The notes below the pieces were generated by a model, which saw only the letters and a list, made by a program, of their open reading frames with translations, was not told the DNA's origin and did not search any database. From NCBI GenBank assembly GCA_003193925.1, contig PSPG01000005.1:37174-101173 (forward strand): DNA of 64,000 nucleotides. Direction: 5' to 3'. This document shows positions 23,437 through 37,188 of the stretch, in pieces. The position numbers were made by a program, and so were the translations under genes. The stretch's first letter is position 1. Each line of letters starts with the position of its first letter. The DNA comes from Candidatus Thalassarchaeum betae. Its GTDB lineage: Archaea; Thermoplasmatota; Poseidoniia; Poseidoniales; Thalassarchaeaceae.

Positions 23437-24546
23437 ATGGATCTGGAGCGTCACGACTTCCAGCTCGACGAGCTCGTCGAGAGAATCAAGGCGAACGACA
23501 ACAGGCTGGTGGCACTGCAGGTCCCCGAGGGCCTCAAGATGCAGGCCCTCGAGATGATGGACACCATCGAGGACGGATCGGGAGCGCAGGTCATCCTGGC
23601 CGCTGACCCGTGCTACGGCGCGTGTGACCTCGTCCACGACAAGATGCGGTCGATGGGCGTCGAGTTGGTGGCCCACATGGGTCACAGCCAGATGAACATC
23701 GACTCTGGCATGCCGACGCACTTCATCCCCGTCACCTACGACGGTGACCCGGAGTTGGCCCCGGCCCTCCCCTTCCTGGAGCGGCATCGGGCAATCGCCC
23801 GATCCCGACTGGACTCGGTAGCGCAGGAAGAGGAGTTGGATGATGCCGCTGCGAAGCAGCGCTTCCTCGATGCGGTCGGGCGCGTGGCCCCCCTGACGGG
23901 CACGAGGCTCGGACTGGTGGGCTCGATACAGCACCTCCACCTCCTGCCCGATTTCAAGGAGAGGCTCGAGAAGGCGGGCTTCGAGGTGGAGATACCGTCG
24001 GGGGGCGAGAGGCTCACTTTCCCCGGTCAGGTGCTCGGATGCAACTACTCGGGGGACGACCCCTCGATCGGTCACTACCTCTTCCTCGGCTCGGGCGACT
24101 TCCACCCCATCGGCCTGGTCCTCCACACCGGCAAGCCCCTCGCCATGCTGGACCCATACAGCGGGGATGCGACCGAGATGTCCTTCGAGCGCATCGAGCG
24201 CATCCTGCGCCAGCGCTTCGGTCTAATAATGGCCGTCGACGGGGCCAAGACGTTCGGCATCCTGATTGGTGAGAAACCGGGGCAGATGCGCCGCAACCTA
24301 GCCATCCGGATGAAGCGGCTTCTCGAGAAGCACGGTCGCAAGGGGTACCTGCTGGCGCTGGACCACATCAGCCCAGACCTCATCGACTTCTACCCGGTTG
24401 ACGCCTTCGTCAACACCGCCTGCCCGCGAATAGCGATCGACGACTCGGTGAAGTACGCCAAGCCGCTCATCACCCCGTACGAGCTCGAGGTCGCGCTCGG
24501 TGAGAAGGAATGGCAGAGCGGATACCAGTTCGACGAGATTCCTTGA
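23437..24546 (+). CDS. dph2: Diphthamide synthase subunit Dph2
   Basis: 369 aa. Radical-SAM-like enzyme that adds the 3-amino-3-carboxypropyl group to the target histidine of elongation factor 2. The three cluster cysteines of archaeal Dph2 are in place: C59 (DPCYGACD, with C63 nearby), C202 (LGCNYSGDD) and C329 (NTACPRIAIDD). The N-terminal motif VALQVPEGLK and the C-terminal PLITPYELEVALG are standard. Archaeal Dph2 works as a homodimer. The stop overlaps an imperfect palindrome ahead of orc1. Confidence 0.93.
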   Translation: MDLERHDFQLDELVERIKANDNRLVALQVPEGLKMQALEMMDTIEDGSGAQVILAADPCYGACDLVHDKMRSMGVELVAHMGHSQMNIDSGMPTHFIPVTYDGDPELAPALPFLERHRAIARSRLDSVAQEEELDDAAAKQRFLDAVGRVAPLTGTRLGLVGSIQHLHLLPDFKERLEKAGFEVEIPSGGERLTFPGQVLGCNYSGDDPSIGHYLFLGSGDFHPIGLVLHTGKPLAMLDPYSGDATEMSFERIERILRQRFGLIMAVDGAKTFGILIGEKPGQMRRNLAIRMKRLLEKHGRKGYLLALDHISPDLIDFYPVDAFVNTACPRIAIDDSVKYAKPLITPYELEVALGEKEWQSGYQFDEIP

Positions 24547-24588
24547 GCACGCGCGCGCAGCAGACGGGCGTATGCGTGCGCGCTGCTC
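24545..24588 (+). promoter_or_regulatory. Imperfect palindrome before orc1/cdc6
   Basis: GAGCACGCGCGCGCA (24545-24559) and TGCGTGCGCGCTGCTC (24573-24588) are near-perfect reverse complements separated by 13 nt. The left arm overlaps the dph2 stop codon and the right arm ends 5 nt before the orc1 ATG. It could be an initiator-binding site, an operator or a terminator hairpin. Confidence 0.35.
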
Positions 24589-24593
24589 CAAAT

Positions 24594-25796
24594 ATGTCTA
24601 ATAACGATGTGAGCACGAGTCGCATGATGGCCGACTACCTCGACAGAATCGGAGCGGGCAAGGTCCTGCTGGACAGAGCGCCGTTCTCGTTCGACTGGAC
24701 CCCGCCCGCTTTGGTCGGCCGCGATACCGAGCTGCGCGAGTTGGCCTCGATGTTCACCGGGATGGAGAGTCACGGGGTCAGCAGCAGGGCCGTGATCACC
24801 GGCCCAGTGGGCTCCGGGAAGACCGTGATGACGCGACGCTTCGGAGAGGACTTGCAGCGCATGCTCGACGGGCGCAGGAAGATCATCCTAGCGCACGTCA
24901 ACTGCCGCAACCACCCGAGCACCTCGCAGGTCCTGCAGCAGATCGTGCTCTCCCTCGACTCCGGTCACCCCGAGCGCGGCTTCAGCTCCGGCGAGATCAT
25001 CCAGTCCATCCGCCGCAACCTGAATGCGCACGACAGTCACCTGCTGCTGGTCCTCGACGAGGTCGATGCCCTGATCCGAAGGGAGAAATCCGACCTCATC
25101 TACAAACTGCTGAGGATCGACGAGGGGCGGGACCAACAGGGCTCCCTCTCGCTGATGCTGGTAAGCCAGGACGTCTCTATGCTGAAGTTGTTCGAGGCCG
25201 CCATCATCTCGCGCCTCGGGGAGAGCAACATCCTGAATCTGCAGCCCTACGACGCGCCTGCGCTGATGGGCATCGCCAGACAGCGCTACGAGGAGGCCTG
25301 CAAGCCTGGCTCAGTGGGCGATGACACTCTGGCCAAGATCGGCAGGTTCGCCGCTGACACCGGAGACGCGCGCCTCGCGATCGAGCTGCTGGAGGCGGCG
25401 ATTCGCCGTGCTGAGAAGGCGGGTAGGGGTGATGTCCTGGTCGAGGACGTGCGGCCCAGCACCCTGCGGGCGGCCTCGGTCGAGCCGAGTCAGGTCGACA
25501 ACCTGAGCAAGCACCAGAAGCTGGTCCTGCTCGGAATCTGCAGGCGCCTGAAGAAGGCCGACGAGATCTCCAGCGGCGACGCCCGGAAGCTGTACAACCT
25601 GGTTTGCGAGGAGTTCGAGGCTAGGCCTCGGAGCTACACCACGTTCTGGAAGCACCTCAAGGCGCTCGAGACCCAAGGGCTGATCGAGACGAGGACGGCG
25701 AACGCATCGGTGGGGAGGGGCAGGACCCAGCACATCACGATGACCAACACCGCACCCGCTGTCCTAGAGAGTCGGATTGAGAAGGAATTCCAATGA
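24594..25796 (+). CDS. cdc6: Orc1/Cdc6 replication initiator
   Basis: 400 aa from the ATG at 24594; ATGs at 24624/24627 are alternatives and would fit a leaderless message from the AAATAT at 24590. The AAA+ domain has Walker A GPVGSGKT, Walker B LLVLDEVDAL and the LVSQD/SRLGESN sensor region. The lid shows TGDARLAIELLEAAIRRAE. The C-terminal winged helix (about 305-395) includes LSKHQKLVLLGICRRLK and TTFWKHLKALETQGLIE. It binds origin repeats and loads MCM. Origins often lie next to orc1 genes, but I see no clear ORB repeats at this locus. Confidence 0.95.
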   Translation: MSNNDVSTSRMMADYLDRIGAGKVLLDRAPFSFDWTPPALVGRDTELRELASMFTGMESHGVSSRAVITGPVGSGKTVMTRRFGEDLQRMLDGRRKIILAHVNCRNHPSTSQVLQQIVLSLDSGHPERGFSSGEIIQSIRRNLNAHDSHLLLVLDEVDALIRREKSDLIYKLLRIDEGRDQQGSLSLMLVSQDVSMLKLFEAAIISRLGESNILNLQPYDAPALMGIARQRYEEACKPGSVGDDTLAKIGRFAADTGDARLAIELLEAAIRRAEKAGRGDVLVEDVRPSTLRAASVEPSQVDNLSKHQKLVLLGICRRLKKADEISSGDARKLYNLVCEEFEARPRSYTTFWKHLKALETQGLIETRTANASVGRGRTQHITMTNTAPAVLESRIEKEFQ

Positions 25797-27636: not shown

Positions 27637-28005
27637 ATGGTTCGCGTCCTAGTCGACGCGTGCGGATGGGCCGCGATGACGGATGCAGGATTGAATCTGG
27701 ACGAGGGGATGAAGGACGTCGTCGGCGAGGCAGACCTCGTTGTCCTCGATAGCGTGCAGAGTGAGCTTGAGCTGCTGGTGCAGCAAAGGAGGAATCTCCT
27801 GCTCGAGCTCCTCGCAAGGCGCTCCGAGAGGATTCCAGACATCGAAGGAATGAGCCATCCGGACGAGATGCTGGTCCACTTGTCGAGTGCCAACGGCTGG
27901 CCGGTGCTGACGGTCGACCGTCGATTGAAAGAGAAGCTGGTGAACTCCGGGGGCTCGTACATCGAGGTCACCTCGGGTCGGGCCCTGCGGCTGGTCGGCC
28001 TTTAG
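27637..28005 (+). CDS. PIN-domain nuclease-like protein linked to aIF2 gamma
   Basis: 122 aa. PIN fold with acidic residues at the expected places: D8 in VLVDACGW, a glutamate in LDSVQSELELL and the aspartate in VLTVDRRLKEKL near the C-terminus. PIN domains cleave RNA. Proteins of this size next to aIF2-gamma in euryarchaea resemble the Fcf1/Utp24-like group suspected in rRNA processing, unlike VapC toxins; no antitoxin gene is present here. The ATG lies 4 nt after the aIF2-gamma stop, so the two are translationally coupled. Confidence 0.75.
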   Translation: MVRVLVDACGWAAMTDAGLNLDEGMKDVVGEADLVVLDSVQSELELLVQQRRNLLLELLARRSERIPDIEGMSHPDEMLVHLSSANGWPVLTVDRRLKEKLVNSGGSYIEVTSGRALRLVGL

Positions 28006-28295
28006 GGCAGAGTGAACAGCCGGTCGTCCCCATGACCGTCCAGAAGGCCGATTCTTACCGCGGCGTCGAGCCAAGCGTGGGAGTAGTTGATCGCGCCGAA
28101 GGCGCTGACCAAGTCCCCTGACTCCATGAAGTGGCGAGCGTCCGCTGCGTAGTCATCGCACATCCTCATCATCGAAGTCAGTCGCTGCTCGTCTTCAGCA
28201 CCCTGTGCGCATGGAGTGGCTTTGGCTCTAGCCTCGGCGGTGAGAGCAAGGTGCTCTTCGATCTTCTCCCGCGTCACAGTGGCACTGTCGGACAT
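28002..28295 (-). CDS. DUF357 family protein
   Basis: 97 aa, all helical. Matches the archaeal DUF357 family: CDDYAADARHFMESGDLVSAFGAINYSHAWLDAAVRIGLL corresponds to the family core YxxDAxxFxxxGDxvxAFxxxxYAHGxLDA. Function unknown; the gene often lies among archaeal information-processing genes. Its stop overlaps that of the convergent PIN gene by 4 nt, and it is 8 nt downstream of the AAA+/winged-helix gene, so probably in that operon. Confidence 0.75.
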   Translation of the reverse strand: MSDSATVTREKIEEHLALTAEARAKATPCAQGAEDEQRLTSMMRMCDDYAADARHFMESGDLVSAFGAINYSHAWLDAAVRIGLLDGHGDDRLFTLP

Positions 28296-28303
28296 TGGAG
28301 CAC

Positions 28304-30079
28304 CTAGGTCAATTCGAGTTCCAAGGATGCCGCATGACTGAGCTTGAACAGCCTCGTCCTGCCCTGCTTGCGCACCGAGAGCAAACCCGCCCTTCGCAAG
28401 CCGTTGTATATCTGCGACAATCGGGGGCGACCCACCTCGAGGAGCGCCTGCAACTCGGGGTCAGATGGCGAAACCTCACGCTTTCCTGCGGCTGCTAGGA
28501 CCGTGTGTTCCGAATCCGAGAGGCTGGCCGCGCGAGTGCGGTCCAGCGGCTCGTCATCGTCCCACCTGGGTCCCATGATGATCGGTATCTTGGGTGGCAC
28601 CGGGTCTGGCTCGGGCTCGACGAAGACCTCCTCGGGCTGGTCGTTCACCAGAGGCGGGGCCTGCTCGATGTCGAACACCGGCGCAGGAGGCGCCTGCGGC
28701 TCCGCATCCAAGTCGGGTAGCGATGAGCCTAGGCTGGGGTCCACCGTCCAAAGAGCGCCCTCGGCTGCCATCACAGGCTGCTCTTCGCTCGGGGCGACGG
28801 AGGTGTCTGGCTTGGCCTCGGTGACGAACGCAGGCTGTGGTTTCGGCTGCGAGGGAGCCTTGACGGGGATCGGAGTCAGTTGAGGGCGCCTCTCGGCATA
28901 GGTGATCGGAGTCTCGTCGAGGCCCTCTGGCATCGAATCGCTGACCCTGACTGACCTGTTGCGCAAGCCGCTGAATCCGCTGACACTCTGCGGCTGCTCG
29001 GGCGGCTCAGTGCCCTCTTCCATGAGCACGAACGAGTCTAGGGTCTCCTGTTCGCCATGAGTGGTGACGGTTTCTGCGGGAGCGGTCTCCTCGGCCTCGT
29101 CCTCCGAGTCCTCGTCCCAGACGTCTTCAGGGTCGGGGAACTCCTCGGTCTCCTCGTCCCACATGTCATCCGGCTCGACATCCCAGTCATCCTCCTCGGG
29201 TTCCGGCTCCGGCTCAGGCTCTGGGGTGTCGCCCTCTACCAGAAGCTCCTCCTCGGGTTCCTCCTCCACCGTGACGAGTGGTTTCTGCCACCCCACCAGT
29301 CGCTCCAGCGTACCCTGAGAGCCTGCGTCACGCCTCTCGTCGACGAGGTCACGGAGCAGGCGGACCACTTCACGGGGGTTGCCCCCTGTATTGCTGTGGA
29401 TGGCCCTGAGCAGATCCGGCTTGATGTTCCACCTCTCCCTTGCCTTCCTGCGCACCAGATTATCGCTCATTTTCTGTATCTGAGGCGCAGAAAGGCCCTC
29501 AAGACGCTCAGGGGGGTCGAAGATCTCGAGCACCTCCTCGTCTAGGGAAGTCAGTTGCGCGGGCGTGAGGGAGACCACCACCAGCGCCCTCAGACGCTGC
29601 AGAAGCGGTGCCATTCGGGTGAGGAAGTCGTTGATCTGGACGCTGGAGGGGTAGTCCAAGGCAATCAGCGGCAGGGGACCCGTGCCCTGCTCTAGAGTCT
29701 CGATCAACTGCTCGCAGAGCTGTCCGATGGAAGGAGGCACGTCGTATCCGACGAAGTTGATGGCAATCTCGTGCATGACGGAGTTCACCGGATCCTCTTC
29801 GGGCCAGTACTGGCCGACGAACTTCTTGTTCACCTGAGACGACAGGGCGTTGATCAGCGAAGTACGGCCACTGCCTCTCTCCCCGACCAAGAGTATCAAC
29901 CGGGGAGATTCAGAGATGACATGCTCGCGCAATCTGGTAAGAAGGGAATCTCGCCCCACTATGTCCTGAGCCCGCGTGGACTCAATAGGTCGGAGTTCGA
30001 AGGGGTTGCCCCTCAGAGGAGGTAGGTCGAGCAGAGAAACTGCTGCTCCATCCATTGCTCGAGCAGCGATTTTTCTCAT
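28304..30079 (-). CDS. AAA+ ATPase with acidic linker and C-terminal winged helix
   Basis: 591 aa (ATG at 30079; an ATG at 30055 fits a leaderless start below the TGAATATTAAGA box). Residues 35-270 form an AAA+/STAND-like ATPase resembling Orc1/Cdc6: VGRDSLLTRL, Walker A GERGSGRTS (66-74), a degenerate Walker B IALDYP and a lid with NTGGNPREVVRLLRDL. Residues about 275-365 are a very acidic Glu/Asp/Pro linker, followed by a Pro-rich region. The last 70 residues are a winged helix (VLAAAGKR...RPRLSQIYNGLRRAGLLSVRKQGRTRLFKLS). Probably a DNA-binding regulator or replication/segregation factor. The adjacent TTAACGC repeats are its obvious candidate sites. No exact family recognised. Confidence 0.65.
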   Translation of the reverse strand: MRKIAARAMDGAAVSLLDLPPLRGNPFELRPIESTRAQDIVGRDSLLTRLREHVISESPRLILLVGERGSGRTSLINALSSQVNKKFVGQYWPEEDPVNSVMHEIAINFVGYDVPPSIGQLCEQLIETLEQGTGPLPLIALDYPSSVQINDFLTRMAPLLQRLRALVVVSLTPAQLTSLDEEVLEIFDPPERLEGLSAPQIQKMSDNLVRRKARERWNIKPDLLRAIHSNTGGNPREVVRLLRDLVDERRDAGSQGTLERLVGWQKPLVTVEEEPEEELLVEGDTPEPEPEPEPEEDDWDVEPDDMWDEETEEFPDPEDVWDEDSEDEAEETAPAETVTTHGEQETLDSFVLMEEGTEPPEQPQSVSGFSGLRNRSVRVSDSMPEGLDETPITYAERRPQLTPIPVKAPSQPKPQPAFVTEAKPDTSVAPSEEQPVMAAEGALWTVDPSLGSSLPDLDAEPQAPPAPVFDIEQAPPLVNDQPEEVFVEPEPDPVPPKIPIIMGPRWDDDEPLDRTRAASLSDSEHTVLAAAGKREVSPSDPELQALLEVGRPRLSQIYNGLRRAGLLSVRKQGRTRLFKLSHAASLELELT

Positions 30080-30087
30080 TCTTAATA

Positions 30088-30261
30088 TTCACGCATTTTC
30101 ACGCTTCCCAGAGGGCGATTTAACGCATTAAAGCGATTTTCCGAGAGGTCTTGGTGATGCTACTGCCTCCAGTACATCGATTGAAAACAAGTCCGTTAAC
30201 GCTTTTCTAACGCTTTTTCGATGCGTTAACGATGCGTTAATGGCCAAATTAACGCTTTTTT
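30088..30261. repeat. Cluster of TTAACGC-type repeats in AT-rich intergenic region
   Basis: The 280-300 nt between the divergent AAA+ gene and HMG-CoA reductase holds no credible gene but many short repeats. TTAACGC occurs at 30120-30126, 30196-30202 and 30249-30255, with CTAACGC at 30207-30213. Inverted copies GCGTTAA are at 30223-30229 and 30234-30240. Looser TTCACGC copies are at 30088-30094 and 30098-30104. Several are followed by T-runs. Spacings of 10, 22, 11 and 11 bp between neighbouring same-strand copies put them on one face of the helix. The stretch is strikingly AT-rich for this genome. Origin, operator or partition site are all possible. Confidence 0.7.
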
Positions 30262-30360: not shown

Positions 30361-31656
30361 ATGCCAGTAGACAGCAGCCGCTTGGAGGGATTCTACAGGC
30401 TCTCGGTTTCTGAACGCCGGGAGAAGTTGGCGGAGATAGCCGGCCTCAGCCCGGAGCAGGTGGAAGCCTGGTCATCCACAGGAGAACTGTCCGAGGACGC
30501 TGCAGACAGGATGATCGAGAATGTCATCGGAACCTACTCCCTGCCGATTGGGGTTGCGACGAACTTCATCATCGACAATGAGCACTACCTGATCCCATTT
30601 GTTCTCGAGGAGCCGAGCGTCGTGGCAGCCGCCAGCAACATGGCGAAGCGCTGCCACGCCAAAGGAGGATTCACATCGAACAACGACGAGCCGGTGATGA
30701 TCGGGCAGATCCAGGTCGTCGGATGCGAGAATCCAGAGGATGCGAGGGACTCAATCATGGCCGCGAAGGCCGATTTAGTCGATTCTTGCAACGAAGTTGA
30801 CCCGATCCTGGTCAAATTCGGGGGCGGATGCAGGGATGTCCAAGCCAGAATCATAGAAACCGAGTCCGGACCCATGGTAATAGTGCACATTCTGGTGGAT
30901 TGCAGGGACGCTATGGGTGCGAATGCCGTCAACACGATGGCCGAGACGATAGCTCCGAAAGTGGAGGAAATCACCGGTGGGACGGTCATACTGCGAATAA
31001 TCAGCAACCTCGCTGTTCACAGGTTAGCGCGGGTGAGCGCGGTCTTCACACCAGCTGAGCTGGCGGACAAGGGCGACGCTAGTCAGGGCTCCGAAGTCAT
31101 AGAAGGGGTACTGCAAGCCTATCACTTCGCCAAGGCTGATCCGTTCCGCGCCACGACCCATAACAAGGGCATAATGAACGCGATATCACCCATAGCCATC
31201 GCATGCGGGCAGGACTGGAGGGCTGTCGAGTCCGGTGCCCACAGCTTCGCATCGCACGAGAGGACGTACGGCTCACTGACCCACTGGGAGAAGGACCCCG
31301 ATGGCAATCTGGTCGGCTCGATAGAGCTGCCCATGGCAGTGGGGCTGGTCGGCGGTGCCGTTCGGGTCCACCCAGCCGCACAGGCCAACGTAGCCCTGCT
31401 GGGCATCTCATCGGCCAACGACCTAGCGAAGGTCATGGCCGCAGCTGGACTGGCTCAGAACCTCGGTGCCCTGCGTGCCCTCGCTACCGTGGGCATCCAG
31501 GTCGGCCACATGAAGCTCCACGTGCGCAACATGGCCGTCACGGCCGGGGCCGAGGGCGGAGAGGTCGACATCGTGGCAGCCCGGATACGGGCGCACGGTG
31601 GCAGGATAACGCAGAAGGCGGTCGAAGAGGAGCTCGCGAAACTCAGGTCGGAGTAA
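30361..31656 (+). CDS. mvaA: HMG-CoA reductase, class II
   Basis: 431 aa from the ATG at 30361, which aligns with the N-terminus of class II enzymes (SRLEGFYRLSVSERREKLAEIAGL); the ATG at 30322 would add 13 residues. Makes mevalonate for archaeal isoprenoid lipids. Seen: ENVIGTYSLPIGVATNF, EEPSVVAAAS, CRDAMGANAVNTMAE, NKGIMNAISPIAIACGQDWRAVE and QVGHMKLHVRN with the catalytic histidine. The class II (Pseudomonas mevalonii-like) form is the bacterial type, found also in Archaeoglobus and Thermoplasmata. It probably shares a promoter region with the divergent AAA+ gene. Confidence 0.93.
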   Translation: MPVDSSRLEGFYRLSVSERREKLAEIAGLSPEQVEAWSSTGELSEDAADRMIENVIGTYSLPIGVATNFIIDNEHYLIPFVLEEPSVVAAASNMAKRCHAKGGFTSNNDEPVMIGQIQVVGCENPEDARDSIMAAKADLVDSCNEVDPILVKFGGGCRDVQARIIETESGPMVIVHILVDCRDAMGANAVNTMAETIAPKVEEITGGTVILRIISNLAVHRLARVSAVFTPAELADKGDASQGSEVIEGVLQAYHFAKADPFRATTHNKGIMNAISPIAIACGQDWRAVESGAHSFASHERTYGSLTHWEKDPDGNLVGSIELPMAVGLVGGAVRVHPAAQANVALLGISSANDLAKVMAAAGLAQNLGALRALATVGIQVGHMKLHVRNMAVTAGAEGGEVDIVAARIRAHGGRITQKAVEEELAKLRSE

Positions 31657-32280
31657 TCACTCCTCGACTTCGAGGGGTTCGCTCTCCACTTCTTCCTCCT
31701 CGGAGAATTCGCTGATGGTCAACTGCTCGTCGGGCGCCAGAGAAGCGGCCAATTGAGCGCTTGTCAGACCCATCTTGGCGGCCTCCTTCCTGAACCAGGT
31801 ACGGACCTTGCGATACTCGACTTCGGGGCAACCGAAGTACTCAGCGAAGCGGCGAGTGGTGGTCAGCCGGCGAGTCAGTCCGTCTCGCCGGCGGCCGATC
31901 AGCCCGGTGTTGGCCAAGTCGCGGACGTGGTCGTACGCCCTCTGTCCGAGCATGTCGACCAGCTGGGACTGCGCCATGGGCTGGTGGTAGGCTATCAGGG
32001 CGGCTGCTGGCAGCAGTCGCTGGGGGATGTCAGCCCGGAACGACTCGGGCAGGTGAGGGGAGAGGCTGGGCCGGACCTCGAAGATCCAGCGTCCGGCGAC
32101 CTCCGTCAGCTGAAGGGCGGAGTCGCGGCGCCGACGAATCGTCACTTGCAGGTCCTTCAGGGCGGATTGGACTTCTGCCTGTGGCCTCTCCAGCAACTCA
32201 GCCAGCTCTGCGACCGACATCGAGCGCCCGGCACCGAACAGTATGGCTTCGAGGACGGTGGAGAGGGATGTCTCAGACAC
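31657..32280 (-). CDS. scpB: Segregation and condensation protein ScpB
   Basis: 207 aa. Tandem winged-helix protein that binds the kleisin ScpA. Seen: LEAILFGAGRSMSVAELAELLERP, QLTEVAGRWIFEVRP (equivalent of the QLVTRPEY block), LPAAALIAYHQPMAQSQLVDMLGQRAYDHVRDLANTGLIGRRR and a TTRRFAEYFG end. An acidic tail extends it. Start overlaps the scpA stop by 8 nt. Last gene of smc-scpA-scpB. Confidence 0.88.
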   Translation of the reverse strand: MSETSLSTVLEAILFGAGRSMSVAELAELLERPQAEVQSALKDLQVTIRRRRDSALQLTEVAGRWIFEVRPSLSPHLPESFRADIPQRLLPAAALIAYHQPMAQSQLVDMLGQRAYDHVRDLANTGLIGRRRDGLTRRLTTTRRFAEYFGCPEVEYRKVRTWFRKEAAKMGLTSAQLAASLAPDEQLTISEFSEEEEVESEPLEVEE

Positions 32281-33283
32281 CGGTGAATCCCTCCATAACC
32301 GTCGTCTTGGGGTTGAGTCTATCTGTCAGAGCGACGAAGTCGTCCTCATCCTCCCAGAGGTCCTTCAGCATGATTCTTCCATTGCGGCCCTTCTCCTGAG
32401 TGAGGTCTGCGTAGCCGCGGTTCGTCAGGAACAGCGCCGAGACCAGAGCGGTCACTTGAGCCTCCGCCTCCGCCTCGTCATGCTTGACCCCGGCGTCGAT
32501 CGAGTTAGCCATCATCTCCTCTACAAGCGTACTCAGGTCCACAGGCTTGCCCCCTCCCTCTGAACGGGCCCTCAGGGCCTCCCAAGTCCTGCGTAGGTCT
32601 CCCTCGAGATCCTCGGCGTGGAGGCTGCCGCTGAATCTCGTCCTCGCACGAGCGAGGGCCTCGCGGCGCTCCTTGGCGATCTGCTCGCGCAGGCGCTGCT
32701 CCTCTGCCAGCCTGCCTGCGGCTTGGAGGCCCATGAGGAGCTCTCCTAAGGTCACAGGGCGGCTCTCGTCGCGGTGGATCCTGCCCTCGAACATCTGAGG
32801 CAGGACCTCATCAGCAGCCCCGGTGAGGACTCCCACGGAGAAGTTGTAGTCGGCGTCGTCGAAGTCGGTCTCCCAGCCGCCGTCGAAGTCCCAGACCTCC
32901 TCCTCTTCGTAACCGAAGGCTCGCTCCTGGCGCTCCATCAGTGTGAATGCCTGTCCGCGTAGTATGGACCATGCCATCCTGATGAGCCTGCCACAGGTCG
33001 GCAGGTCGATGTTCTCTGACTCCTTGATCCTCTCGTTGAACATCTCGAGGAAGCTCGAGAGGTCGACGTCCCATGGGTCGAGGTCGCTCGATTGGAAGAG
33101 TTGGAAGACCAGTGCCACCGAGCGGTCGAAGGGGTCGATGAGGAACTGGTGCTCGGCCTCCTCGAGAGTCGCGAGTTCCACGAGCCTGTCCAGGTAGCGG
33201 CTCGTCTCGAGGTCGGCCTCTCCGCCGAGCATCCTCACCACTATGTCGTCGCGCAAGGCCCGCCCGTCGAACACAGCCATCAC
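32273..33283 (-). CDS. scpA: Segregation and condensation protein ScpA (kleisin)
   Basis: 336 aa. Kleisin that bridges the SMC heads. N-terminal block FLIDPFDRSVALVFQLFQSSDLDPWDVDLSSFLEMFNERI matches the conserved ScpA N-terminal domain, followed by a helical middle with Glu-rich and Arg-rich stretches and a C-terminal winged helix (LVSALFLTNRGYADLTQEKGRNGRIML). Start overlaps the smc stop (ATGA at 33280-33283). Acts with SMC and ScpB in chromosome condensation and segregation. Confidence 0.88.
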   Translation of the reverse strand: MMAVFDGRALRDDIVVRMLGGEADLETSRYLDRLVELATLEEAEHQFLIDPFDRSVALVFQLFQSSDLDPWDVDLSSFLEMFNERIKESENIDLPTCGRLIRMAWSILRGQAFTLMERQERAFGYEEEEVWDFDGGWETDFDDADYNFSVGVLTGAADEVLPQMFEGRIHRDESRPVTLGELLMGLQAAGRLAEEQRLREQIAKERREALARARTRFSGSLHAEDLEGDLRRTWEALRARSEGGGKPVDLSTLVEEMMANSIDAGVKHDEAEAEAQVTALVSALFLTNRGYADLTQEKGRNGRIMLKDLWEDEDDFVALTDRLNPKTTVMEGFTGV

Positions 33284-36200
33284 TCGGCCTCCTTCTGCTC
33301 GGCCTCGGGCTCGGGCTCAGGATCATCCGGAGCCTGTTCGACGGCATCACGCTCGACGATGTCCTCAGTCCAATCCTCGGTTCGCTCACGAAGCGATTCA
33401 ATGGTGCCGCCCTCTGCCTCGATCTCCTCATGCGCATCGCCCTCGGTGACTTCCACTCCGGCCCGCTCGGCCAAGCCACCGAGACTCTTGGGGGCGCCTA
33501 GTGGCTCGGGAGCCCGGGGCATGTCCTCTGGGTCGGGTAGCTCGGGCATCTCTGCTCGCTCTGCCTCGGCCTCGGCCTGAGCCTTTCGCTCCGCCTCGAA
33601 CTCCTCGCTCATCTCAAGGGCTGCTGCCCTGTCGAAGTCGGTGATCAGGCGGCTGCGTCCGTCACCGGCGTGGGTGATCCCAATGTGGTGGTCGGCGAGG
33701 ATCAGGCTGACCTTTCGCAGAGTGACCATCATGAATTGGGCTCGCTGGCTGCGCATCCTGCACAGGGTCGCGATGCGCTCCGCGTTGAACGGGTCGAGGT
33801 TCTGGTCGACCTCGTCTAGGTAGTAGAACGGGCCCGGCTCGTAGTCCTGGATCGCGAAGATGAGAGCGAGGGCGGCCATCGACTTCTCGCCGCCCGAGAG
33901 CTGGCTCCTCCGGGTGTTCTTGCTTTTACCAGGAGGTACGCAGTCCATCTCCAAGCCGCCATCGAAGGGGTTCTTCGGGTTCTCCATACGGAGTTTGCCA
34001 CTGCCGTACGGCTGCAGTATCCCATAGACTCTCGAGAAGTTTTTGTTGACATGATCGAACACCGCCATCAGACGGGTCTTGCGCTCGTCCTCCAGCTGCT
34101 CCGCTATGGATACCAGCTGGTCGCGTCGGTCGCGCAGCAGCTTGCCGTCCTCTACGAGGCCGGCGATTCGCTCTACGGCGGTGTCGTACTGCTCGATGGC
34201 GAGCATGTTGACATCGCCGAGATGACCGAGGCGGCGCTCGAGCCCCTGCACGCTCTTCTCCGCCTCGGCCACAGTCGGCAGTTGCACATCCGGCGATGGG
34301 ATGCCGATCTCAGAGGCCTCTAACTCGGCCACGATCTCATCCACCGCTTCGTGCTTCTGCTGGATTTGTAGGTTCAGATCCTCTATGCGGGCTGTCAGGG
34401 TCTCTCTCTTCTGGGATAGTGTATCCACCGAGGCGCGCAGGCTGGCGCGCTCGTCGACGATCTCGTCTCGTCGCTCCTTGAGCGCGTTCTGCTCCTCGTT
34501 GAACTGGGATACCTGCTCCCCGAGGTCAACCAGTTTTTCCTCGGCTTCGGTGATGGCCTCATCGAGCTTGGTGATGGCTGCCTCAGCCTCGGCGGCGAGT
34601 TCCTTCTTCTTGTCGATCTGGCGCCGGAGGTCCTCCACTCGGTCAGCGAGTATCCTCAGACGCTCGTTGCCGTTGGATATCGCTGACTCGGAGGCGAGTC
34701 TCTCTCGCCCGGCCTCGGTCATGGTGCGCTCGGCATCACGCAGCTTCTGCGACAGGTGGTCGGGCGCGTGCTCCTGTAGGGTCTGTGCGGCCGCGGCCCG
34801 CTCGGACACGGCCTGCTCGTGGGCCTCTCTGGCCTCCTCTGCCTCTGTCCTCGAATCTGTGTGGGCGGACTCGCACCTCCGGAATTCCTTCATCGCCTCG
34901 ACGACCTTCTTGCGAACGTCTGCGACGGTTTTCTGCGCCCGCTCGAGGTCTGCCTTCCAATTGCGCAGGCGCAGGGAGTGGTCGCTGTCGTCGAGGCCGT
35001 GAATCCTATCTCTAAGGGTCTGCTGGTTGGTCCGCAGCTCCCTCAGCGCGGCCTCGACGGTGGAGTAGATCAGGTTGGCTTCTTCGACGGCGGCCTCGAG
35101 CCTGTCCAGGCTGGAGGAGACCGAGCCACCGCCGAAGGCATTGCGGTTGGTCCTGGATGCCGAGCCACCGGTCATGGCGCCCGAGCTCTCGATGACCGAG
35201 CCGTCGAGGGTGACCAGTCGGACACCGCCCATGTTGCGACGGGCGATGCCCATCGACTGGACGAGGAGGGTGTTGCGCCCTGCGTACCTGACCGCAGTCT
35301 CGACCTCTGAGTCGTAGTCGAGAAGGTCGTGGGCGAAGCCGATGACGCCGGGATTGTCGGCGACTATCAGCGAGCGCCCCTGGGGTCGGCTGACTCTGAG
35401 TTTGTTGAGGGGCAGGAAGGTTGCCCTGCCGCCGCCGTTCTTCCTCAGCCAGCCTATGCACTTGGCGGCGACGTCATCATCGGTTACGACGATGCTCCTC
35501 AAGCCGGCTCCGAGTGCGTTGGACAGAGCCCCCTCGTGAGCCGGGTCCCTTGGCGCTGTGAGTTCTCCGAGGGAACCCAGTATGCCATTTATCTCCCCGC
35601 TCTGGCGAAGTCTGGTGAGTGCTGCTAGAGTGACTGCCGAGCCTGGAGTGTTGGCCCGCTCCTCATGGCGGGCACGGGCCTTGTTCAGCTCCCTCTCTGC
35701 GTCTCGGACCTTGATCTCGGAGCGGTCACGGTCCTCGACCAGCGTCGCCTCCTGTCTCTGCAGTCTGCGCAACTCCTCGGCCAGGGAAGCCCGATCCGCC
35801 TCGGGCTCGTCGCTCTGCAGGTCCTCCCCTACAAGTTCGAGGTCGTCACGGACCATCGTGGCCTCCTCGAACTCCGCCTCGAAGTCGGCCAGTTTGGCCG
35901 AGGAGATCTGCGCCGTCTGCTCTGCCCGGTCAGCCTCGAGTCGAGCCTGAGCATGGCTAGCGTGGGCTGCGTCGACTGCCTCGGTGGCCTTACCGAGGAC
36001 GCGCGTCAGATCGCGACCGTGCTTGTCACCGGACTCGATGGCCTCGCGGGCGGCCGCCTCGTCCTCGGCGGCCTGTTTATGTGACTGGATGGCCGCCTCG
36101 AGCGCGCCACTGGCATCTTTGAGGGAGCCTTCGGCGTCTGTGCGTGCCGACTCGGCTCGCTCGAGCTCGTCCCCGAACTCCTCGGCTTCGCCTCCGGCAT

Positions 36201-37188
36201 CCTCGATGATCCTGCGCTGGTCGCCTTTCCTGTCGCCGCCGGTCTCGATCTCGATCTCGTACTGGCGAATCTGCTCCAGCAGTTTCCGGGCCTCGCCGCT
36301 CATGATCTCGTTGATGTCCGAGTCGACCTTGACGAGCTCCTCGTCGAATGCCAGGAGGCCCTTGTTGCCGTCGGTGATCCTCTCGCCGATCTCATCTATC
36401 TCATCGAGGTAGCGCGAGCGCTCCTCGCCCAGCAGTCGTACCTCGTCGAGGCGGTTTCTGTGCCTCGACTGGTGGAGAGTAATCCTAGAGGCGTCCAACT
36501 CGTCCTTCAGCTGCTTGAATTTCAGAGCATGCTCGCGCTCCTTGGCGAGGTCCCTCAGGCGCTTCTTCTGCTCGGCCTCGAACAGGTCGATGGTCCCGAT
36601 GTTATTCTCGACGTGCTTGCGCTGGGTGCTGGCGCGGCGGATCTCGTCGTCGTAAGCGGTGACGCCCGCGACCTCCTCGAGCACGCCGCGCCGCTTGTAC
36701 GGGGTCATCGTAGCGAGTTTCGTGACGTCGCCCTGCTGGACGATGTTGTAGCCTTCTGCGCGCAAGCCTGCTTCGGCCAAGATGCGTCGCATCTCGGTGG
36801 CCGTGGACGGATTGTCGTTGATTCTGTACGAGGAGATGGGGTCGCCCTTCCTACCGAGCCTGACAGAGCGGGTGAAGCTGACCTCGTCGGTGTCGACCAT
36901 CAGCCTCCTGCGACCGTCGAACTCCGGGGTGTTGGAGAAGACGAGAGTGGCGGACATGTGCTTGGCTGGCCTGCCACGCTTGCCGCCGTTGAATATCAAC
37001 TGGGTCACATTGGCGGCCCTGATCGACTTGGTGGACTTGGGTCCGAGCACGAATTGGATGGCATCGAGGGAGTTCGACTTGCCCGATCCGTTGGGCCCGG
37101 TTATGGCCGTGAATCCCTCTTCGAGTGGGATTGTGACTTCGCCTGCGAATGACTTGAAGTTCTCTAGTTCCATTCGCAATAGACGCAT
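33280..37188 (-). CDS. smc: Chromosome segregation protein SMC
   Basis: 1302 aa. N-terminal head with Walker A GPNGSGKSNSLDAIQFVLG and the FKSFAG start typical of SMC; long coiled coils; a hinge around residues 525-660 (GSLGELTAPRDPAHEGALSNALGAGLRSIVV); and a C-terminal head with signature LSGGEKSMAALALIFAIQ and Walker B YYLDEVDQNLD. After the second head comes an unusual acidic and Pro-rich tail of about 110 residues. Forms a loop-extruding dimer with ScpA/B. The gene-free 133 nt upstream (37189-37321) holds a GCCTATG/CATAGGC dyad with a 14-nt loop. Confidence 0.96.
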   Translation of the reverse strand: MRLLRMELENFKSFAGEVTIPLEEGFTAITGPNGSGKSNSLDAIQFVLGPKSTKSIRAANVTQLIFNGGKRGRPAKHMSATLVFSNTPEFDGRRRLMVDTDEVSFTRSVRLGRKGDPISSYRINDNPSTATEMRRILAEAGLRAEGYNIVQQGDVTKLATMTPYKRRGVLEEVAGVTAYDDEIRRASTQRKHVENNIGTIDLFEAEQKKRLRDLAKEREHALKFKQLKDELDASRITLHQSRHRNRLDEVRLLGEERSRYLDEIDEIGERITDGNKGLLAFDEELVKVDSDINEIMSGEARKLLEQIRQYEIEIETGGDRKGDQRRIIEDAGGEAEEFGDELERAESARTDAEGSLKDASGALEAAIQSHKQAAEDEAAAREAIESGDKHGRDLTRVLGKATEAVDAAHASHAQARLEADRAEQTAQISSAKLADFEAEFEEATMVRDDLELVGEDLQSDEPEADRASLAEELRRLQRQEATLVEDRDRSEIKVRDAERELNKARARHEERANTPGSAVTLAALTRLRQSGEINGILGSLGELTAPRDPAHEGALSNALGAGLRSIVVTDDDVAAKCIGWLRKNGGGRATFLPLNKLRVSRPQGRSLIVADNPGVIGFAHDLLDYDSEVETAVRYAGRNTLLVQSMGIARRNMGGVRLVTLDGSVIESSGAMTGGSASRTNRNAFGGGSVSSSLDRLEAAVEEANLIYSTVEAALRELRTNQQTLRDRIHGLDDSDHSLRLRNWKADLERAQKTVADVRKKVVEAMKEFRRCESAHTDSRTEAEEAREAHEQAVSERAAAAQTLQEHAPDHLSQKLRDAERTMTEAGRERLASESAISNGNERLRILADRVEDLRRQIDKKKELAAEAEAAITKLDEAITEAEEKLVDLGEQVSQFNEEQNALKERRDEIVDERASLRASVDTLSQKRETLTARIEDLNLQIQQKHEAVDEIVAELEASEIGIPSPDVQLPTVAEAEKSVQGLERRLGHLGDVNMLAIEQYDTAVERIAGLVEDGKLLRDRRDQLVSIAEQLEDERKTRLMAVFDHVNKNFSRVYGILQPYGSGKLRMENPKNPFDGGLEMDCVPPGKSKNTRRSQLSGGEKSMAALALIFAIQDYEPGPFYYLDEVDQNLDPFNAERIATLCRMRSQRAQFMMVTLRKVSLILADHHIGITHAGDGRSRLITDFDRAAALEMSEEFEAERKAQAEAEAERAEMPELPDPEDMPRAPEPLGAPKSLGGLAERAGVEVTEGDAHEEIEAEGGTIESLRERTEDWTEDIVERDAVEQAPDDPEPEPEAEQKEAE

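Follow-up and report, generated by a model that had tools for sequence, protein, structure and literature searches.

A conserved array of phased TTAACGC sites upstream of an AAA+/winged-helix gene in Marine Group II archaea

Autoregulatory operators of the iteron or DnaA-box type adjoin the gene of their own AAA+ or winged-helix protein. The locus described here, from Candidatus Thalassarchaeum betae, resembles these operators in having short non-palindromic repeats that keep a helical register, occur in both orientations, and lie in the promoter of the presumed binder. It differs in its presumed binder, a degenerate, order-specific AAA+ protein carrying a long acidic linker and an unrelated winged helix-turn-helix (wHTH), and in showing no sign of replication initiation. 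Archaeal Orc1/Cdc6-ORB origins likewise contain AT-rich intergenic repeats near Orc1-type genes, whereas the motif of this array is not ORB-like, is tiled at 11 bp, and has no skew switch. ParB-parS and archaeal SegAB loci are alike in having one cis cluster beside the gene of a DNA-binding protein, near SMC-ScpAB genes; unlike in those systems, the protein here is AAA+ plus wHTH, and no recognised ParA, ParB, or SegAB gene was seen beside the array. A literature search, which was not complete, found no paper on the array element, its protein, or the motif, and nothing specific on Marine Group II origins.

The window, defined here as the whole 64,000-nucleotide stretch analysed, contains the array at 30088-30255, in the intergenic gap between a divergent AAA+/wHTH gene and HMG-CoA reductase (HMGR) gene. 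Direct reading and search identify eight 7-mers on both strands, of which five are exact TTAACGC and three are one-base variants. The plus strand has three TTAACGC, one CTAACGC, and two TTCACGC copies; the minus strand has two TTAACGC copies. The parts of the array are listed below with the conservation of each site in 11 representative genomes of the same family.

30088-30094, plus strand: site 1, TTCACGC (variant), immediately next to the TATA-like box of the AAA+ gene, at the place where its BRE would be; conserved 0.88
30098-30104, plus strand: site 2, TTCACGC (variant); conserved 0.73
30120-30126, plus strand: site 3, TTAACGC; conserved 0.85
30127-30195, no strand: spacer between sites 3 and 4, variable in sequence except for a CAGTA element near 30168-30176
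30196-30202, plus strand: site 4, TTAACGC; conserved 0.97
30207-30213, plus strand: site 5, CTAACGC, 11 bp past site 4; conserved 0.91
30223-30229, minus strand: site 6, TTAACGC reversed; conserved 0.93
30234-30240, minus strand: site 7, TTAACGC reversed, 11 bp past site 6; conserved 0.97
30249-30255, plus strand: site 8, TTAACGC followed by a T-run; conserved 0.97

Same-strand steps in the array are 10, 22, 11, and 11 bp. The fuller consensus of the site is RTTAACGCwT, which is about 10 bp long and non-palindromic. An earlier note, made from the letters of this DNA, had described about eight copies of TTAACGC, CTAACGC, or TTCACGC in 170 bp, in both orientations and with same-strand steps of 10, 11, and 22 bp; this description holds, and all eight positions are kept in the 11 genomes. 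The lone TTAACGC that it placed before tRNA-Ser (19775) is also real, and is within chance expectation. The window as a whole has 6 copies of TTAACGC against 1.33 expected, a count never reached in 100 shuffles. The 1.48-Mb assembly, in 23 contigs, has 21 copies, with 5 of them inside 136 bp at the array. An Rfam scan of the array gap gave no structured RNA match.

The array is present in both families (f1 and f2) of the order Marine Group II. At least four [CT]TAACG sites occur in 53 of 55 intergenic regions between the AAA+ and HMGR genes in these families, with a mean of 6.15 sites per region compared to 0.23 after shuffling (n = 55), and 11 bp is the dominant same-strand step among them. 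The array is thus not absent from the orthologous gap of close relatives, the absence that the earlier note had named as evidence against its reading. Within the 11 genomes of the same family, pairwise identity is 0.90 in site columns and 0.47 in spacers (p about 3e-17). The only other conservation peaks there are the TATA-like box and the CAGTA element, which is conserved inside a spacer that is otherwise variable in sequence and fixed in length. In family f1 genomes that retain both sites, the start-to-start distance from site 3 to site 4 is 75-77 bp. This conservation is unlikely to reflect mere shared ancestry of unconstrained DNA, judging from the sequences, since the AAA+ protein is only about 22-35% identical between the two families. 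Chance was rejected as the origin of the array on the basis of the shuffles, the count in the assembly, and the conservation in relatives.

The array is essentially confined to one locus per genome. The 11-bp pair pattern TTAACG-n5-TTAACG was searched for in 60 and then in 145 genomes, and the matches listed adjoin the upstream side of the AAA+ gene, with about five exceptions (G029:C44, G046:C5, G117:C125, genome G079 of the sister family f3, and G107:C26, the last at a contig end). The G079 match is isolated and is the only one among 21 f3 genomes. No second cluster of at least three sites was found in the 101-kb contig of this genome or in a 354-kb contig of genome G022. In genome G037, of which 1.63 Mb was scanned, there is one further cluster, which is weak, consists of three sites at 1809754, and is apparently coding. 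In the sequence scanned, clusters are not equally common in unrelated intergenic regions, the other outcome named as adverse in the earlier note. A dispersed genome-wide motif was rejected, as the motif is rare in the assembly and the pair is essentially confined to the AAA+ locus. TTAACGC copies outside the array fall 15 on the forward and 1 on the reverse strand in the whole assembly, whose contigs are arbitrarily oriented; the reversed control pattern is balanced between strands (28/32).

The genes and promoter elements surrounding the array are as follows.

24510-25796, plus strand: Orc1-B, a genuine Orc1/Cdc6 paralogue, syntenic with the array across the order
28002-28295, minus strand: DUF357 gene, immediately downstream of AAA+ and conserved with it
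28304-30055, minus strand: AAA+ protein with acidic linker and wHTH (583 aa), the candidate binder of the array
30081-30087, minus strand: TATA-like element, putatively the TATA box of the AAA+ gene (TATTAAG in the sense direction), some 29 bp before the inferred ATG, recognised by eye and by conservation
30361-31656, plus strand: HMG-CoA reductase of the TIGR00532 type, transcribed away from the AAA+ gene, with a conserved start MPVDSSRLEG at 30361, not 30322
31657-32280, minus strand: ScpB, a condensin gene
32273-33283, minus strand: protein at the ScpA position, with no Pfam or NCBIfam match
33280-37188, minus strand: SMC, a condensin gene

The outer neighbours are thus Orc1-B, eIF2-gamma, and DUF357 on the AAA+ side and ScpB, the ScpA-position protein, and SMC on the HMGR side. 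The protein between ScpB and SMC is probably a divergent ScpA. SMC, ScpB, and Orc1-B are syntenic with the array across the order. In genera g2 and g5 an inversion has turned the block with Orc1-B and eIF2-gamma around with respect to the AAA+ gene and array, and the unit DUF357-AAA+-array-HMGR stays together in both. Wherever a genome yielded both the AAA+ and the HMGR gene, the two are divergent, and between 130 and 495 bp separate them. Across the 55 intergenic regions, the sites lie at a constant distance from the AAA+ start and are scattered relative to the HMGR start.

A search of 60 close relatives found the AAA+ gene in 59, and the gene has a strong match in 123 of 124 genomes of families f1 and f2. 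The only named relative found carries the name Candidatus Thalassarchaeum betae as well, and its AAA+ protein is 78% identical. A sample of 194 genomes across the phylum gave no match outside the two families at E<=1e-6, and a full-length match is present in 0 of 21 genomes of f3. That family has an HMGR of the same type, with neither the AAA+ neighbour nor the array at the 11 loci read. Orc1-B also has no close orthologue seen in f3, where the best match is 28% identical. Because Orc1-B tracks the locus in this way, co-occurrence alone cannot separate the AAA+ protein from Orc1-B as the binder.

The open reading frame of the AAA+ gene opens at 30079, and its orthologues align from the ATG at 30055. 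The orthologues and the TATA-like element at 30081-30087 point to this ATG as the start, giving a protein of 583 aa in place of the 591 aa first reported. The distance from the putative TATA box to the ATG would fit a leaderless promoter, going by the usual layout of archaeal promoters. Residues 1-255 match the AAA+ and lid domains of Orc1/Cdc6 (hhalign against an Orc1 alignment, probability 96.4%, E 1.3e-9, 224 columns). In 37 of 38 orthologues, position 64 holds arginine in place of the Walker A lysine; the Walker B Asp134 is invariant and lacks the following glutamate. Orc1 proteins of the same order keep K104 and D183-E184 intact in their alignment. Low hydrolytic activity would be expected from these motifs. 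An acidic linker of about 175-340 residues, with a net charge of -22 to -79, is found in all orthologues. The wHTH is the best conserved part, with a mean identity of 53%, compared to 35% for the AAA+ domain and 21% for the linker.

The Cdc6_C winged helix (PF09079) has no match in the 583-aa protein or its 37 orthologues. A PDB profile search with the protein returned weak, generic AAA and wHTH matches only, and a structure predicted from two sequences is of low quality (pLDDT 43). By its sequence, the protein is an order-specific, degenerate Orc1-type AAA+ domain joined by an acidic linker to a wHTH, and it has the appearance of a replication initiator that has become a DNA-binding regulator. 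The label "Orc1-like" in the earlier note is apt for the AAA+ module only: the Walker A lysine is replaced and the Cdc6_C domain is missing; the genuine Orc1/Cdc6 proteins of this genome are encoded by two other genes.

We consider it moderately likely that the array is where the adjacent AAA+/wHTH protein binds and that it serves chiefly as the operator of that protein's own gene. The sites lie in the promoter region of the AAA+ gene and in fixed register with it, the array and the gene co-occur in f1 and f2 and are both missing from f3, and the wHTH is the best conserved part of the protein. This evidence lends indirect support to the earlier note, which had assigned the array to the neighbouring protein. 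In such an operator, each non-palindromic RTTAACGCwT site would be bound by a single wHTH domain, and sites 11 bp apart, sharing a helix face, would allow the AAA+ domains of neighbouring protomers to associate. With its degenerate catalytic motifs, the AAA+ domain may act more in assembly or sensing than in hydrolysis. Assembly of the complex would start at the consensus sites 4-8, which lie about 110-170 bp upstream of the AAA+ TATA box; the variant TTCACGC sites 1-2 beside the TATA/BRE would be occupied last, silencing the AAA+ promoter. Negative autoregulation is the probable outcome in the family of this genome, where the variant sites abut the TATA/BRE. The same complex may influence the divergent HMGR promoter, about 70 bp beyond site 8, and an effect of this kind is possible. 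In family f2 most sites lie clear of the AAA+ TATA box; steric repression in its simple form would then not account for all members, and activation is equally possible there. Also counting against the operator reading, eight sites with a length-conserved 76-bp spacing are elaborate for plain autoregulation, and Orc1-B likewise tracks the locus.

The earlier note had named an operator, a second origin, and a segregation site as possible roles, and among these the operator is favoured and the second origin disfavoured. A second origin with Orc1-B or the Orc1-like AAA+ protein as its recognition factor would agree with the AT-rich intergenic repeats, the Orc1-type AAA+ module of the neighbouring protein, and the position of Orc1-B, which does not flank the array and lies about 3-6 kb from it across the order (about 5 kb in this genome). 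All 60 relatives carry at least one Orc1 gene and at most two; as a rule Orc1-A lies elsewhere and Orc1-B close to the array. A step of 11 bp is, however, tight spacing for Orc1-type sites. The ORB consensus tabulated in PMC4153887, TTCCANTGGAAACnnnGGGGT, has no match in the window at up to 4 mismatches, and its best match on the 20-kb array locus of G037 has 4 mismatches. The best canonical ORB of that complete genome is instead near Orc1-A: a near-canonical copy, TTCCAATGGAAACAGAGGGGGGT, with 1 mismatch, lies about 5 kb from this gene (G037:C1, about 1824164) and is a candidate for the Orc1-A origin. A weaker match is present in G022:C8 at about 239352.

Strand skew, a check that the earlier note had suggested in the form of GC skew, does not switch at the array in G037 or on the G022 contig. 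Gene-corrected fourfold AT skew in G037 has no switch at the array (0.695 Mb) or at Orc1-A (1.83 Mb). A sharp negative-to-positive switch occurs in this genome at about 1.22-1.25 Mb, with a mixed zone at 0-0.6 Mb, and neither Orc1-A nor Orc1-B is at the switch. The 354-kb contig of G022 (G022:C8, 1-353735), which carries both Orc1 loci, has no switch anywhere; its gene-corrected AT4 is uniform at about +0.13 and its GC4 skew is mostly positive. The profile of the 101-kb contig of this genome is noisy. With no ORB at the array and no skew switch there in G037 or on the G022 contig, a long-standing main bidirectional origin is disfavoured. This skew test is weaker than it appears: Orc1-A shows no switch either, so skew may mark origins poorly in this order, and a weak or recent second origin would leave no skew. 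A second origin at the array is, on balance, very unlikely.

A centromere-like or SMC-loading site is also unlikely, if less so. The AAA+/wHTH protein would mark one place on the chromosome and recruit SMC-ScpAB through its linker or AAA+ domain, with autoregulation secondary, as in Par systems. The single locus per genome, the synteny of SMC, ScpB, and Orc1-B with the array, the dense phased sites, the long acidic linker, and the order-wide retention all agree with this role. The link to SMC is one of gene neighbourhood, however, and the register of the sites is tied to the AAA+ promoter. Among the ten window genes scanned with Pfam, none is of the ParA/SegA type. That an order-specific pseudo-Orc1 on a single phased array beside smc-scpAB forms a condensin-loading or centromere-like site, as a ParB/parS analogue evolved from initiator-type parts, seems quite unlikely. 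It is distinctly unlikely that the array is primarily an operator of HMGR, bound by an unlinked transcription factor with the AAA+ gene as a mere neighbour. In favour of it, every genome in which both genes were found has the array upstream of HMGR, and HMGR is an attractive step at which to control lipid synthesis. Against this, the register of the sites follows the AAA+ gene and not HMGR, f3 genomes keep HMGR without the array, and no second target cluster was found, which would be unusual for an unlinked regulator.

Surface seawater harbours abundant Marine Group II archaea. A cis element fixed across the order, with one likely partner protein, offers a concrete protein-DNA pair to test. 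The locus also holds Orc1-B and SMC-ScpAB, and it thus bears on the control of replication, segregation, or lipid synthesis in these archaea.
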